From contig JAFYQC010000147.1 in assembly GCA_017547265.1 (NCBI GenBank), positions 1-5,253 of the forward strand: a stretch of 5,253 nucleotides of DNA, given 5' to 3'. Made by a program: the position numbers and the translations under genes. This document shows, one piece after another, positions 1 through 4,939 of this stretch. Below the pieces are notes generated by a model. The model was given only the letters and a program-made list of their open reading frames with translations, was not told the DNA's origin and ran no database searches. Origin of the DNA: Kiritimatiellia bacterium (GTDB lineage: Bacteria; Verrucomicrobiota; Kiritimatiellia; RFP12; UBA1067). Positions within the stretch are counted from its first letter, which is position 1. Each line of letters opens with the position of its first letter.

Positions 1-393
1 CGGATGAATCCTTGTGCAGAGGGGGCGCATGGGCTTTCGATGGAGTTTCTCAGGCGGAATGGAATTCACCCAGCAAACGGGCTTGGGCGTTTCGTGGGTT
101 TTATCGACGGGTGTGATCTGCTTGTCGCTCACAATCTTCCATTTGACTTGCGCATGTTGAAGAACGGATGTGTGAAGTATGGGGTTCATCATGCTTGGGA
201 TGGCGTGAGAACCTGCGATACGCTTGCCTTGGCCCGCCAGATGCATCCAGAATTTGAGTGCCATGCGCTTTGGCATCTGATTGACGCACTTGGCGTTGAT
301 GGAACAAACAGTCACGACGCTCTTGATGACGCACGAGCCTGCGCGGAGGTATTTTTCAAACTTGTAAACGAAAGGAACAAAAAGGATGGATGA
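1..393 (+). CDS. DnaQ-like DEDDh 3'-5' exonuclease, 5'-truncated by the window edge
   Basis: This encodes the C-terminal two thirds or so of a DEDDh-family exonuclease (the fold of DNA polymerase III epsilon, DnaQ), which removes nucleotides from DNA 3' ends with two metal ions. Counting from the ATG at position 4, the sequence shows the 'NP...A.GAHGLS' segment (residues 2-12) that normally follows the first acidic motif. Motif ExoII is 'VAHNLPFD' (residues 41-48, catalytic D48) and ExoIII is 'HDALDDA' (104-110, catalytic H104 and D109). The DxE of ExoI should lie just upstream, outside the window, and the frame is open through position 1, so the ATG at 4 is internal rather than the true start. 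The gene overlaps the next one by 8 bp, so the two are probably translated together. An exonuclease beside a DnaE-like protein recalls the epsilon/alpha pairing. Family is confident; a proofreading role is inferred and doubtful given the partner's lost active site. Confidence 0.85.
   Translation, partial: RMNPCAEGAHGLSMEFLRRNGIHPANGLGRFVGFIDGCDLLVAHNLPFDLRMLKNGCVKYGVHHAWDGVRTCDTLALARQMHPEFECHALWHLIDALGVDGTNSHDALDDARACAEVFFKLVNERNKKDG
371..376 (+). promoter_or_regulatory. Ribosome binding site of the DnaE-like/phosphatase gene
   Basis: AAAGGA lies 9 nt before the ATG at 386, inside the 3' end of the exonuclease gene. It supports this start and indicates translational coupling with the upstream frame, which ends at 393. 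Confidence 0.55.
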
Positions 394-2275
394 GAAAGAG
401 GTGCGTCTCCGTGAGCGTGTCATAGCCGGAGCACGCAAGAGGTGGAATGACACAGAGATGGATTTGTTTGCTGCCCAGAGGCTTGAGTTTGAGCTGTCCT
501 TGATTAACAAGGGGGGCTGGACTGATTACTTTCTCATGGTTGCCGATATGGTAGAAGCGGCGAGAGGTGCCGGCGGCATTGTTGGCCCGGGGCGAGGACG
601 GGCTGTGGCAAGTGTAGTGCTTTATGCGCTCGGCGTGACTGGAGTAAATCCGTTCAAACATGAAAACATCCTGTTTGAGCGTTTCCTTCCATCGGAGATA
701 GCGAAAGATGCTTCGCTCATCTGTGTGGATTTTGACGGCATCGGCTATGCCGCTGCATTGGCGTATCTCAAAACGAGTTATGGCGAGATCAAAGCAGAGG
801 AAAGGAAATCTCATGCCTCGCCAGAGTGTTGGCATGTTGGCGAGAGATGTATCGGCGTGACCCGTCTGGAAGCACTTGATCGGATTGCCTTCACGACAAA
901 GTTGATCGCTGAAACCGGCGGCACGGTCCCAGACCTCGAGAATCTGCCAGAGGATGAGACTTCGGCGATGCAAGTGCTTTGCAGAGGTGATACGGCTGAC
1001 ATTCCTGGATTCGATACGCCGTCGGCCAGAAGGTGGATTCGCAGACTGCACCCGAACGATGTACGCGAGCTGGCGATTATACATGCCTTGCATCATGCAT
1101 ACATGAAGGACAAAATAGCCGCATATGAAAAATGCAGACAAGAAGGTGATGTTTCGGCAACATATAGCCTCAAGGCGGCAAAAGAGTATTTGTGGGAAAC
1201 TAATGGTGTGATCGCATACGATGAGCAGGTCATGCTGTTGTTGAGACGGCTTGGCGGGTTTACCCGCGACGAGGCGTATAAATGTCGCAAGGCTTTGGCG
1301 TGCAAAATGAGCGAAAGAATAGCGGGGTTCAAGGAGAAGTTCATCTCTGGCTTTGTCGGTAATGAAGAGCTGTGCAAGGCTGAGGGGATTTCTGCCGATG
1401 AAGCGCACGGATTGGCTGGACGGATTTGGTCGGAATTGGAACATGATGCGATGTTCACGTCCCTGAAAGCGCACGACATTGCGCAGGTGCGGCTGGCCTA
1501 TCTGTCGGCATATCTGAAGCACAACTACCCAATGGAGTGGATGTTTGCGGACGGCGAAATTTCCGGGATGCCGACAGTCAGGAAAGTTCGAGGGCAAATA
1601 ACGCTACGCGACATTGAACATGCGTTGACGGTATATGACATGCGTGTGATTATGCTTGTCCGTCATGCGGAGCGGCCTCCGCTCGATCCGTCGGATACGA
1701 CGTTTGGCGCACACCTCCCGATAACGGAGAAAGGCATGTCCGATGCTTTGACATTCGGAGGGACACTCGCACATTTTGTCCATGCAGGGGATGCCGCCGT
1801 CTTTGCAAGCGAAACATTAAGAACGATCCAGACGGCGCATGTTATCCACCGATGTTTTGTAAGACAGGATGAGTTGCCCTCTTCGGAAGTGAGGCGGTGC
1901 GGATATCTCGGAGGAAAATCGCCGTTCTTTGGATCGCTCGACGAGCGCATGAAACTGATTGCCGAAGGTCGCTATCTTGATCGCCTCAACGAGTATTACC
2001 GAGTGGGTACGCAACTTGGCTATCGTCCGCTTGCTTCTGCCACTGATGCGTTTGAGGATTGGCTGATAGAGACCTCAAGGATGTCGGGGCGGCCGCTCAC
2101 AATTGCTGTCACCCACGATATCAACGTCGCTTCTTTTCTTGCCGGTCGTGGCGTTGTGACCTCCTTTACGAATGAGACATGGCCTCACTATCTTGACGCG
2201 GCGGTCATCATGCTTGACGGACATGGATATGCTGAATATGGGTTTCTGAAACATATCGATTACGGAGAAAAGTGA
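386..2275 (+). CDS. Inactive-looking DnaE (Pol III alpha)-like core fused to a histidine phosphatase domain
   Basis: Two domains are visible in 629 residues. Residues ~25-390 match the core of bacterial replicative polymerase alpha. They show 'YFLMVADMVEAA' (48-59), 'GPGRGRAVASVVLYALGVT' (67-85), 'ILFERFL' (95-101), a 'LENLPEDE...VLCRGDTADI' region (184-206), 'NGVIAYDEQVM' (273-283) and 'AYLKHNYPMEWM' (375-386). The PHP domain and the C-terminal half of DnaE are missing; full alpha subunits exceed 1000 residues. The PDxDxDF catalytic motif is replaced by 'SLICVDF' (110-116), losing both metal-binding aspartates. The third aspartate (FDFLGL motif in DnaE) also appears lost near residues 156-162. 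Residues ~418-610 are a histidine phosphatase: 'RHAE' (R426, nucleophile H427), 'LRTIQTA' (R479) and 'VTHD' (H577). These key residues are intact, so phosphatase activity is plausible; the substrate is unknown. The start at 386 has a ribosome site and overlaps the exonuclease gene. The DnaE relation is confident; non-catalytic status is inferred from a by-eye alignment. Confidence 0.82.
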   Translation: MDEKEVRLRERVIAGARKRWNDTEMDLFAAQRLEFELSLINKGGWTDYFLMVADMVEAARGAGGIVGPGRGRAVASVVLYALGVTGVNPFKHENILFERFLPSEIAKDASLICVDFDGIGYAAALAYLKTSYGEIKAEERKSHASPECWHVGERCIGVTRLEALDRIAFTTKLIAETGGTVPDLENLPEDETSAMQVLCRGDTADIPGFDTPSARRWIRRLHPNDVRELAIIHALHHAYMKDKIAAYEKCRQEGDVSATYSLKAAKEYLWETNGVIAYDEQVMLLLRRLGGFTRDEAYKCRKALACKMSERIAGFKEKFISGFVGNEELCKAEGISADEAHGLAGRIWSELEHDAMFTSLKAHDIAQVRLAYLSAYLKHNYPMEWMFADGEISGMPTVRKVRGQITLRDIEHALTVYDMRVIMLVRHAERPPLDPSDTTFGAHLPITEKGMSDALTFGGTLAHFVHAGDAAVFASETLRTIQTAHVIHRCFVRQDELPSSEVRRCGYLGGKSPFFGSLDERMKLIAEGRYLDRLNEYYRVGTQLGYRPLASATDAFEDWLIETSRMSGRPLTIAVTHDINVASFLAGRGVVTSFTNETWPHYLDAAVIMLDGHGYAEYGFLKHIDYGEK

Positions 2276-2653: not shown

Positions 2654-2887
2654 ATGGCGCTTTGCTACAAGAAACTCTGGCATCAGCTGATTGACCATGA
2701 CATGACTCGCACAGACCTGCGCGAGGCAATCGGTTTGTCGCCCACAACACTTGCAAAAATGTCCAAGGGCGAGGCCGTCGCGACGCCAATCCTTGAGAAA
2801 ATTTGCGGGACGCTCCATTGCAACATAGGCGACATCGTAGATTATGTCCCTGACGAACCAGCAAACATGCAGGAGCAGAAGAAATGA
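2654..2887 (+). CDS. Small XRE/Cro-C1-type helix-turn-helix regulator
   Basis: A 77-residue protein that is almost entirely one Cro/C1-type DNA-binding domain. The helix-turn-helix spans about residues 19-40: 'TDLREAIGLS' forms the first helix and turn, and 'PTTLAKMSKGE' the recognition helix. It is followed by 'ILEKICGTLHCNIGDIVDYV' (46-65), the typical end of this compact subfamily. The tail after residue 66 is polar and probably disordered. The start has a ribosome site and a promoter with an overlapping palindrome. Its TGA overlaps the next ATG in an ATGA arrangement, so it is co-translated with the nuclease. It most likely represses its own operon, as small XRE proteins of toxin-antitoxin and defence cassettes do; that role is inferred. 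No effector-binding or protease domain is present. Confidence 0.9.
   Translation: MALCYKKLWHQLIDHDMTRTDLREAIGLSPTTLAKMSKGEAVATPILEKICGTLHCNIGDIVDYVPDEPANMQEQKK
2871..2875 (+). promoter_or_regulatory. Ribosome binding site of the YhcG-family nuclease gene
   Basis: AGGAG inside the 3' end of the XRE gene lies 8 nt before the ATG at 2884 and supports that start within the ATGA overlap. Confidence 0.6.
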
Positions 2888-4032
2888 AACAGGCGAAGCG
2901 AGTGGCCGTTTCAAGCAATGAGTTTGGCGCGGTTCTGGAGATAATCAATGCGCATCGCGCAAAGGCCCTGGTGTCCGTAAACGTGGAGCATCTGCTCACG
3001 AACTGGGAGATCGGCGGATACTTGTCCGCCAAGATTAAGCATGAAGGCTGGGGCAAGTCAACCATCGACAACCTTGTTGACTACATACACACCCATGCGC
3101 CAAGTGAGCGGGGGTATGGGAGACGAAACCTATACAACATGGTTGCCGTCTATGAAGCGTTCACATCTTCCGATTTCGCAGCACTAGTTGCACGATACGG
3201 AAACCGAATTGTCCAGTCGGCGGCTGGACAATTGCCATGTGGGGAATTCGTGCAGCCGAGAGCTGCACAAATTCAAGCTGCCAATCTGCCAGAAGTGCAG
3301 CCAGCGGCTGCACAAATTGCCCCGATGCCTTGTGTCCTCGCGCTGACGACGTTCACGAATATTGTGGAGATTCTGAATCGCACCAGAACTGCACAGGAGC
3401 GTTTGTTCTACATCGTGTACTCCTTTAGGGAGCGCCTGAAGAAACTCGAATTGCGCCGTTGTCTTGTCAACGACACCTATTCGTCGCTTCTCGGTGGCGA
3501 CAAGAAGAACTTTTCCAAGGCGCTTGTCGCGTCGTATCCCGATTCGCCGGTCATCTTCAAGGACTCGGCGTTTGTCGATTTCCTCAATCTGCCGGAGAAG
3601 CATTCCGAGAAGAAGCTTCGCAAGGGAATCGTTGCGAACATGAAGGACTTTATCCTGTCGATTGGCAAGGATTTCCTGTTTGTCGGCGAGGAGTTCCCCG
3701 TCAAGGTTGGCGGTTCCGAATTCAACATTGATCTTCTCTTCTACCATCGCGCGCTTCAATGCCTCGTGGCCTTTGAACTAAAGGCTCGCTCGTTCCGTCC
3801 CTCTGACATGGGACAGCTGGAGTTCTACCTCGAAGCGCTCGACAGGGATGTTAAGCGGGCGAACGAGAATCCGTCCGTTGGCGTGTTGCTTTGCAAGAAC
3901 GCAGACCGCAGCACCGTCGAATATGCTCTTTCGAGGTCGATGAGTCCCGCGATGGTCGCCGAGTACAAGCGGTTGATGATACCGAAGGAAGTCCTGCAGG
4001 AAACATTCAACCGCTACATTGGAGTGAAATAA
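2884..4032 (+). CDS. yhcG: YhcG-family (DUF1016) PD-(D/E)XK nuclease
   Basis: The 382 residues are close to the usual length of the YhcG/DUF1016 family. The N-terminal DUF1016 domain spans about 15-105, with 'NWEIGGYLSAKI' (40-51), 'GWGKSTIDNLVDYI' (55-68) and 'GYGRRNLYNMVAVY' (77-90). The C-terminal PD-(D/E)XK nuclease domain spans about 225-365. Its metal-binding residues are D283 in 'FNIDLLFYHRAL' and E298/K300 in 'AFELKARSF', followed by 'GQLEFYLEALD' (310-320) and 'SVGVLLCKNAD' (331-341). The catalytic signature is therefore intact. The family fold is that of restriction and Holliday-junction-type nucleases, but its substrate is not well established. The linker (about 108-147) holds three copies of an eight-residue unit, VQxxAxQ(I/L), each encoded by a DNA hairpin. 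Codons become visibly richer in G/C at the third position from about 3420, in the nuclease half. It is coupled to the XRE gene; a defence or recombination role is inferred from context. Confidence 0.9.
   Translation: MKQAKRVAVSSNEFGAVLEIINAHRAKALVSVNVEHLLTNWEIGGYLSAKIKHEGWGKSTIDNLVDYIHTHAPSERGYGRRNLYNMVAVYEAFTSSDFAALVARYGNRIVQSAAGQLPCGEFVQPRAAQIQAANLPEVQPAAAQIAPMPCVLALTTFTNIVEILNRTRTAQERLFYIVYSFRERLKKLELRRCLVNDTYSSLLGGDKKNFSKALVASYPDSPVIFKDSAFVDFLNLPEKHSEKKLRKGIVANMKDFILSIGKDFLFVGEEFPVKVGGSEFNIDLLFYHRALQCLVAFELKARSFRPSDMGQLEFYLEALDRDVKRANENPSVGVLLCKNADRSTVEYALSRSMSPAMVAEYKRLMIPKEVLQETFNRYIGVK
3207..3318 (+). repeat. Three homologous in-frame hairpin repeats in the nuclease linker
   Basis: Each unit is 24 nt (eight codons) and folds on itself. 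Unit 1 is 3211-3234; its stem AATTGTCCAG (3207-3216) / CTGGACAATT (3224-3233) has a 7-nt loop. Unit 2 is 3250-3273; 13-nt arms at 3244-3256 and 3262-3274 carry one mismatch around a 5-nt loop. Unit 3 is 3295-3318; GTGCAGCC (3295-3302) / GGCTGCAC (3306-3313) has a 3-nt loop. Units 2 and 3 differ only in the loop. All are in frame and encode VQSAAGQL, VQPRAAQI and VQPAAAQI, separated by 15 and 21 nt. The C-G pair at 3213/3227 is a G-C pair in the other two units. Confidence 0.85.
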
Positions 4033-4038
4033 AGAGGA
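4033..4038 (+). promoter_or_regulatory. Ribosome binding site of the RhuM-like gene
   Basis: AGAGGA fills the 13-bp gap after the nuclease stop codon and lies 7 nt before the ATG at 4046. Confidence 0.6.
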
Positions 4039-4045
4039 CGGCGGC

Positions 4046-4939
4046 ATGAACGAGAATCAGATAGTCGTGTATCAGCCGAACGAGACTGTCCGGCTGGACG
4101 TACGTCTTGAAAATGAGACGGTATGGCTGACGCAAAGCCAGATGGCGACTTTGTTTGGGTGCAGTACGGACAACATCGGGCTTCACTTAAAGAACGTGTA
4201 TTCCGTCGGCGAGTTGTCAAGAGAAGCAACTACCGAGGATTTCTCGGTAGTTCGTCTCGAAGGTTCGCGTCAAGTCCGTAGAACCGTGACGTGCTACAAC
4301 CTCGACGCCATTATTTCGGTTGGATATCGGGTGAACTCCGTTCTTGGCGTTAAATTCCGCCAATGGGCAACGGGAATATTGAAGGAATATTTGCTCCGTG
4401 GTTATTCGGTAAATGCGAGGTTGAATCAACTTGAGGACAAGGTAGATCGGCGGCTTGTGGCGCATGACCAGCGCATTTCAACCCTTGAAAGCAAAGTCGA
4501 TTTCTTCGTGCAGACCAAGGAGCCGCCGCTGCAGGGGGTGTTTTACGACGGGCAGTTGTGGGATGCGCGGGCGCTGGTGCTGAAACTCGTGGCCGGCGCG
4601 AAGCGTTCGCTGATTCTCATCGATAACTGGGCGACGACTGCGACGCTCGACTTGTTCGCGAAGAAGCGCAAGGGAGTGAAGGTGACGGTCTTCACGTCGC
4701 AGCATTTCAACAAGAAGGGCGTGCCGCAGCGCAAGCTGTCCGCATCGGACGTTGCGACGTTCAATGCGCAGTATCCTAAGCTCGCCGTCAGATTCACCGA
4801 GTCGTTCCATGACCGCTTTCTCGTCATCGACGACAGGGAACTGTATCTGATCGGGGCGTCGCTGAAGGATCTCGGGCGCAAGTGCTTTGCGTTCACAAAG
4901 CTTGACCCCGGTGAAATCGTCCGCATCCGTGCCGACTAA
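4046..4939 (+). CDS. rhuM: RhuM-like protein with C-terminal phospholipase-D-like domain
   Basis: 297 residues in two parts. Residues ~5-125 match the RhuM 'virulence protein' family: 'VRLENETVWLTQSQMATLFG' (19-38, a helix-turn-helix-like segment), 'NLDAIISVGYRVNS' (85-98) and 'FRQWATGILKEYLLRGY' (104-120). A likely coiled coil follows (about 124-152). Residues ~164-286 look like a phospholipase-D-like domain: 'SLILIDNWATTATLDLF' (188-204), then 'HDRFLVID' (255-262) and 'YLIGASLKDLG' (267-277). The HxKx4D signature appears as H255-x-R257-x4-D262, with Arg for Lys, and only one HKD half is visible. Activity, if any, may need a dimer or may be lost. RhuM proteins are often found beside restriction and other accessory genes; no biochemical function is established. 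It is third in the XRE operon, 13 bp after the nuclease. The last ~11 residues (287-297, 'DPGEIVRIRAD') may derive from PurF rather than RhuM, so the native C-terminus may have been replaced. Confidence 0.85.
   Translation: MNENQIVVYQPNETVRLDVRLENETVWLTQSQMATLFGCSTDNIGLHLKNVYSVGELSREATTEDFSVVRLEGSRQVRRTVTCYNLDAIISVGYRVNSVLGVKFRQWATGILKEYLLRGYSVNARLNQLEDKVDRRLVAHDQRISTLESKVDFFVQTKEPPLQGVFYDGQLWDARALVLKLVAGAKRSLILIDNWATTATLDLFAKKRKGVKVTVFTSQHFNKKGVPQRKLSASDVATFNAQYPKLAVRFTESFHDRFLVIDDRELYLIGASLKDLGRKCFAFTKLDPGEIVRIRAD
4228..4252 (+). repeat. Perfect hairpin inside the RhuM-like coding region
   Basis: AACTACCGAG (4228-4237) and CTCGGTAGTT (4243-4252) are exact reverse complements around the 5-nt loop GATTT. 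It encodes residues 61-69 of the RhuM-like protein, in frame. The amino acids there fit the family reasonably, so it need not be an insertion. Confidence 0.75.

Follow-up and report, generated by a model that had tools for sequence, protein, structure and literature searches.

The active-site aspartates of DnaE, the Pol III alpha polymerase of the C family, are D401, D403 and D555 (PMC8485763 and PMC3919608, in the sections consulted), and the portion consulted of a survey published in 2013, which covered about 2000 genomes, calls the catalytic aspartates of this family 'absolutely conserved' (PMC3919608). The corresponding portion of a 2026 survey describes inactive members of the X and Y families and none of the C family (PMC12926913), and in neither portion is a DnaE/phosphatase fusion described. 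In noncanonical PolX, according to the excerpts consulted (PMC9226535), a polymerase scaffold with a lost triad and deletions carries an active phosphoesterase, a precedent for a dead polymerase with an active phosphoesterase; however, its polymerase belongs to family X, not C, and its phosphoesterase is a metal-dependent PHP domain. MutT1 likewise combines a nucleotide-handling domain with a histidine phosphatase domain in one protein, but its Nudix partner is active and it has no polymerase domain (PMC11784022, in the part consulted). Our literature searches found no report of a histidine phosphatase-DnaE fusion, of DNA polymerase III alpha in Kiritimatiellae, or of REase-ARP. The RNase HI-CobC fusion Rv2228c also joins a nucleic-acid enzyme to a histidine phosphatase, with an RNase H that is unrelated to DnaE.

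The window, the whole 5,253-nt stretch of DNA analysed here, contains on its forward strand a single intact open reading frame of 629 amino acids (386..2275) in which a DnaE-derived core, a predicted pseudo-polymerase, is joined to a histidine phosphatase. The presence of both families in one frame, proposed earlier from the sequence alone, is borne out by Pfam and NCBIfam profiles: Pfam returns two DnaE pieces and a weak histidine phosphatase match, and the top NCBIfam DnaE models align in two stretches with a jump between them. The N-terminal part of the palm spans residues 8-136 (407..793; Pfam DNA_pol3_alpha, E 1e-25, profile positions 3-128 of 260) and carries a GPGRG motif (residues 67-71) and FERF. 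In the alignment to E. coli DnaE, L111 and C113 (716..724) stand at catalytic D401 and D403 (E. coli numbering), about 40 residues (115-155; 728..850) occupy the place of the deleted thumb, and G157 (854..856) falls at catalytic D555, a pairing that is slightly less sure because it adjoins the thumb deletion. The fingers follow (residues 164-390; 875..1555; Pfam DNA_pol3_finger, E 1.8e-26 for 164-326) and keep the steric-gate histidine H363 (1472-1474) as well as K361. A linker (residues 391-417; 1556..1636) has, in the structure model, pLDDT below 50 at 394-396, a strand at 398-404 and a helix at 407-415; it leads into the phosphatase domain (residues 418-629; 1637..2272), with R426-H427 at 1661-1666, R479 at 1820-1822 and H577-D578 at 2114-2119.

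Compared with DnaE, the fusion lacks the PHP domain (no PHP match), the thumb, the catalytic triad and the C-terminal clamp-binding region. The absence of the first and last of these had been noticed in the sequence-only reading and holds, the frame beginning at the palm. Between the positions of D405 and K553 the window has 40 residues, against 100 or more in thumb-bearing DnaE. We placed these losses in a 209-row alignment covering palm and fingers, assembled from the best hits of the protein searches and some loci rather than as a random sample, with the thumb called by alignment length (at least 100 residues) and the phosphatase by motif. All 172 thumb-bearing rows keep the triad and none has a phosphatase, whereas thumb and triad are both absent from all 18 phosphatase-bearing rows (the window and 17 clusters); 14 further rows, in which the thumb is absent or reduced, have an incomplete triad and no phosphatase, and in five a reduced thumb goes with the triad. 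Thumb loss, triad loss and phosphatase gain therefore go together, with intermediates. Six DnaE-like proteins without a phosphatase (P0341, P0344, P0283, P0244, P0247 and P0303), whose triad is incomplete in the alignment and whose thumb is reduced or absent, are possible further pseudo-polymerases.

Other parts of the polymerase have been kept. The overall palm-fingers fold of DnaE is present by Pfam and in the structure model. G361-R362-G363 (GRG) is retained in all 22 core-group rows with letters there, and the equivalents of K758 and H760 in 23 of 24 rows each; H760 is the presumed steric gate, which we take to touch the sugar of the incoming dNTP. At S364 and K553, presumably triphosphate contacts, the residues are replaced in the alignment to E. 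coli DnaE. Since the thumb, the three metal-binding aspartates, the PHP domain and the C-terminal region are lost, this protein should not copy DNA, and the DnaE part is best described, on these residues, as a pseudo-polymerase core that is predicted to be dead as a polymerase. The earlier description of a 'stripped-down Pol III alpha core' is thus right about DnaE origin but not about a working core. The net charge of the window core (-9) was considered as a sign of DNA binding and set aside as uninformative; it does not speak for binding.

The phosphatase half, by contrast with the polymerase half, looks intact. R426-H427 and R479 are present in all 19 aligned rows with the domain and H577 in all 18 that reach that position, so that the residues first read as intact in the window are conserved among its relatives. 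We take H427 to be the nucleophile, with R426, R479 and H577 beside it and D578 as the acid, roles assigned from the superfamily. Structure prediction of the full chain, suggested by the sequence-only reading, gave a high-confidence predicted DnaE fold and confirmed the histidine phosphatase fold. Phosphatase chemistry is accordingly a well supported prediction of both residues and model, and a nucleotide or a DNA end may be its substrate. Within the superfamily (RosC, the MutT1 C-terminal domain, PhoE, acid phosphatases) the domain differs in being joined to a DnaE core and in forming its own subfamily, with RHAERPPLDPSDTTFG and SPFFGSLDER blocks.

The fusion is not confined to the window. 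A search of 5.8 billion proteins gave 1938 matches among 7995 scored candidates (two protein searches were run, with about 8000 candidates scored in each and the best 120 listed), and P0001-P0022 are set apart from the remaining matches by score. The joint between DnaE and phosphatase is common to at least 17 of these clusters (P0001-P0004, P0007-P0010, P0012-P0018, P0020 and P0022), which are 38-100% identical; P0001, nearly identical to the window, differs from it at three positions, all in the DnaE part. P0005 and P0021 start inside the fingers and continue into the phosphatase, and P0006, P0011 and P0019 comprise the DnaE part only. Four clusters (P0013, P0016, P0017 and P0018) have an extra N-terminal stretch, and a profile from two of them matches the phosphatase profile (hhalign 94.7%, E 6.4e-8); by its sequence this stretch appears to be a second, dead phosphatase copy, its catalytic residues being absent by eye. 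No characterised protein with this architecture was found in our searches, in agreement with the initial impression.

In a phosphatase tree of 75 rows, including 12 cassette phosphatases (see below) and leaving out L002, the window groups with fused rows and with P0122, P0123 and P0126. Nine of the 12 cassette phosphatases belong to another clade, which has 25 rows, and the other three (L052-L054) to an outer group. The fused rows do not form one supported clade, and one or several fusions are therefore both possible. A virus or phage origin was considered and rejected: two scans of viral contigs gave no relative of the fusion, and of 989 phage records matched by tblastn none covers 80% of the query, the 20 matches listed covering residues 8-388 only.

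Relatives of the two halves also occur as separate genes. A scan of genome contigs gave five loci, all with a free-standing phosphatase and three of them from Kiritimatiellae; all five genomes belong to the class that was then searched. For 345 genomes of this class, the matches listed include no complete fused frame; in one genome (G150) a dead-type core is truncated by the contig end. The dead core of locus L046 runs into the linker region at the end of its contig. The PurF piece of the window is at most 64% identical to PurF of the class genomes, among the matches listed, and the comparison suggests that the window's species is absent from the 345. Close phosphatases (E <1e-80) were found in 13 of the 345 genomes, and the 13 cassette loci come from one class, are not independent and in several cases are cut by contig ends. 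A DUF6946 match occurs in all 13, in L004 only of a second DUF6946 type, and at 11 the fetched stretch also contains a DnaE core match; the portion consulted of PMC10584680 places DUF6946 in a nuclease clan. Because DnaE and phosphatase are mostly neighbouring separate genes in the class genomes, the fusion has a visible origin.

The DnaE genes of these loci are themselves varied. The 11 copies comprise six short ones (about 770-820 residues, PHP and core), three full-length ones and two fragments; fragments were seen at L003/L056 (L056 with an internal deletion) and at L004, where the contig begins inside DnaE. At L002 a 34-residue PHP trace is the sole DnaE remnant, and L049 has no DnaE. The triad is intact in all six copies aligned (four short, two full), and of the six genomes that carry a short copy, five (G001, G005, G189, G193 and G264) list another DnaE frame elsewhere. 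At L004 (2-1387) the DnaE fingers run straight into a stretch that by eye resembles a DnaB-type helicase, and P0027 and P0031 are listed with PF03796, which we take to be DnaB, together with DnaE domains.

Gene order is also variable: nine of the 13 loci end with the phosphatase, and L047 and L048 begin with it. In L052 and L053 it is flanked by DUF6946 and a full-length DnaE, and the DUF6946 and phosphatase frames overlap there by 8 bases. Many of the loci have a RAYT-like transposase and a variable gene between or beside DUF6946, DnaE and phosphatase. The variable gene, often PD-(D/E)XK-like, is of REase-ARP types, another D...EGK type, the second DUF6946 type or one further type; a loose, self-made D...(E/Q)xK pattern, some of whose matches may be due to chance, fits 11 of the 14 cassette genes examined. 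A cassette of DUF6946 nuclease, short or full-length DnaE, RGRPRK protein, exchangeable nuclease and histidine phosphatase recurs at L001, L005, L047, L048, L050-L054 and L056, and its RGRPRK protein has a weak similarity to RecX, below cut-off. PADLOC 2.0.0 (E 0.01) found no model match for the fusion or for seven cassette proteins.

In the window the fusion has other neighbours. Upstream is the C-terminal part of a DEDDh-type (DnaQ-like) exonuclease (1..393, forward strand; Pfam RNase_T, E 7.9e-13), whose 5' part is outside the window and whose end, stop included, shares 8 bases with the beginning of the fusion (ATGGATGA at 386-393). No DUF6946 match was found in the 5.3-kb window, which ends inside this upstream gene and has YhcG downstream of the fusion. 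G+C at codon position 3 is 0.51-0.57 in the exonuclease, DnaE and phosphatase parts, against 0.65-0.69 in the YhcG, RhuM and PurF genes downstream. Between genes, at 2276-2653, a short frame end reads NNFEPVTFDELVANNQRYKAERPERTT by eye and is possibly a gene relic. The YhcG (DUF1016) and RhuM/PLD genes (2884-4939) match the PADLOC candidate defence models PDC-S02 and PDC-S05, and relatives of the PLD end of the latter gene occur at cassette loci L047 and L051. The YhcG frame contains three 24-nt repeats at 3207-3318, where the DUF1016 match is stretched; at least two of them show hairpin symmetry, and the whole looks like an in-frame REP-like insertion. The piece of PurF at 4940-5251 matches model positions 229-317 only; it follows the RhuM gene directly, and purF therefore lacks its N-terminal part at this site.

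We propose that the fusion is an active phosphatase on a dead DnaE scaffold, derived from such a cassette, that places the phosphatase on a ligand or partner in conflict with foreign DNA, a reading to which we assign a probability of about 0.5. A Pol III alpha core would have lost the thumb, the aspartates, the PHP domain and the C-terminal region, leaving the mini-palm and fingers as a shell that would keep part of the nucleotide-contacting surface. The phosphatase would form a phospho-histidine on H427 by the usual superfamily route, and the shell would position it on a ligand, either a nucleotide or a nucleic acid, or on a partner from the operon, from which phosphate would be stripped. The gene probably descends from the Kiritimatiellota cassette of DUF6946 nuclease, DnaE, variable nuclease and histidine phosphatase, the window itself being without a DUF6946 match, and this cassette would most likely serve in conflict with foreign DNA; its restriction-type nucleases make a conflict role more plausible. 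The computations show the fusion, the loss of polymerase residues, the intact phosphatase site and the linkage of the phosphatase's relatives to the cassette; activity as a phosphatase, the ligand, the targeting and a part in defence are what we infer. A more specific version is tentative, and we consider it rather unlikely: that this is the first C-family pseudo-polymerase, a nucleotide or nucleic-acid sensor steering a phosphatase effector in a new Kiritimatiellota nuclease/DnaE/phosphatase conflict system.

Alternatively, the DnaE part could be a decaying passenger, the phosphatase having captured the 3' end of a dying DnaE neighbour and being the only part that matters. We regard this as doubtful, if the most serious of the alternatives. 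Full DnaE, short DnaE, thumbless core, stub and phosphatase without DnaE can be arranged as a series, and DnaE is gone or fragmentary in L002, L049 and L056. P0003 has an in-frame loss of 59 DnaE residues. In 33 of 36 pairs divergence is higher in the DnaE half than in the phosphatase half, mostly by less than 2.4-fold. The extra divergence is, however, mostly modest: the ratio of DnaE to phosphatase divergence lies between 0.57 and 2.33 in 34 of the 36 pairs, which are not independent, with values of 4.22 and 14.4 in the remaining two, and across 20 rows 50 positions of DnaE do not vary (gaps allowed). Long intact frames in at least 17 clusters and the high-confidence DnaE fold predicted by the model likewise argue against decay. 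Long N-terminal extensions were found on 20 phosphatases, 17 of which match the DnaE core profile there, 13 of these with a short stub only and six with two pieces (E-values computed against 20 sequences only, some first pieces being weak at 0.0004 to 0.13). With a short stub on 13 of the 20, the DnaE part can therefore shrink; yet the region of the last DnaE helix is retained in the stubs of 13 proteins, six of which have an earlier piece too, and this suggests a role for at least part of DnaE.

Rather improbable, in our estimation, is a metabolic phosphatase acting on a sugar, lipopolysaccharide or cofactor phosphate, with a chance fusion and the nuclease cassette as mere neighbourhood. The histidine phosphatase superfamily is promiscuous. 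The NCBIfam matches of the domain are lipopolysaccharide heptose phosphatases (PmrG, E 2e-7, far below cut-off), and the best folds include RosC, PhoE and other small-molecule phosphatases. Against this stand the fusion itself and the link with DnaE and nucleases, which recurs in several gene orders. Four weaker phosphatase matches taken as controls (L041-L044) have no DnaE in the stretches of 5.5 to 10 kb fetched for each, though another distant phosphatase, L055, has a DnaE gene about 3 kb away.

A minimal polymerase that still works, its phosphatase clearing away pyrophosphate or damaged nucleotides, would fit the retained fingers and steric-gate histidine and the DEDDh-type exonuclease upstream, but we reject it as highly improbable, the metal-binding aspartates and thumb being missing from every phosphatase-bearing row and the triad being reported as absolutely conserved in the C family (PMC3919608, in the portion consulted). 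Least probable of all, to the point of being negligible, is an artefact of assembly or frame joining two genes, or a local deletion with homologues that are always two genes, as the sequence-only reading had allowed: the free-standing phosphatases of the contig scan and the class genomes without a whole fused frame among their listed matches would agree with it, but independent clusters share the joint and the dead core of L046 reaches the linker region.

Returning to an active phosphatase on a dead DnaE scaffold, the fusion may stem from a bacterial conflict system, as a polymerase put to a new use. If this is true, thumbless, triad-free DnaE cores with a phosphatase would represent a bacterial replicase fold recruited as a non-polymerase scaffold, and the fusion family points to the exchangeable-nuclease cassette as a candidate for defence.
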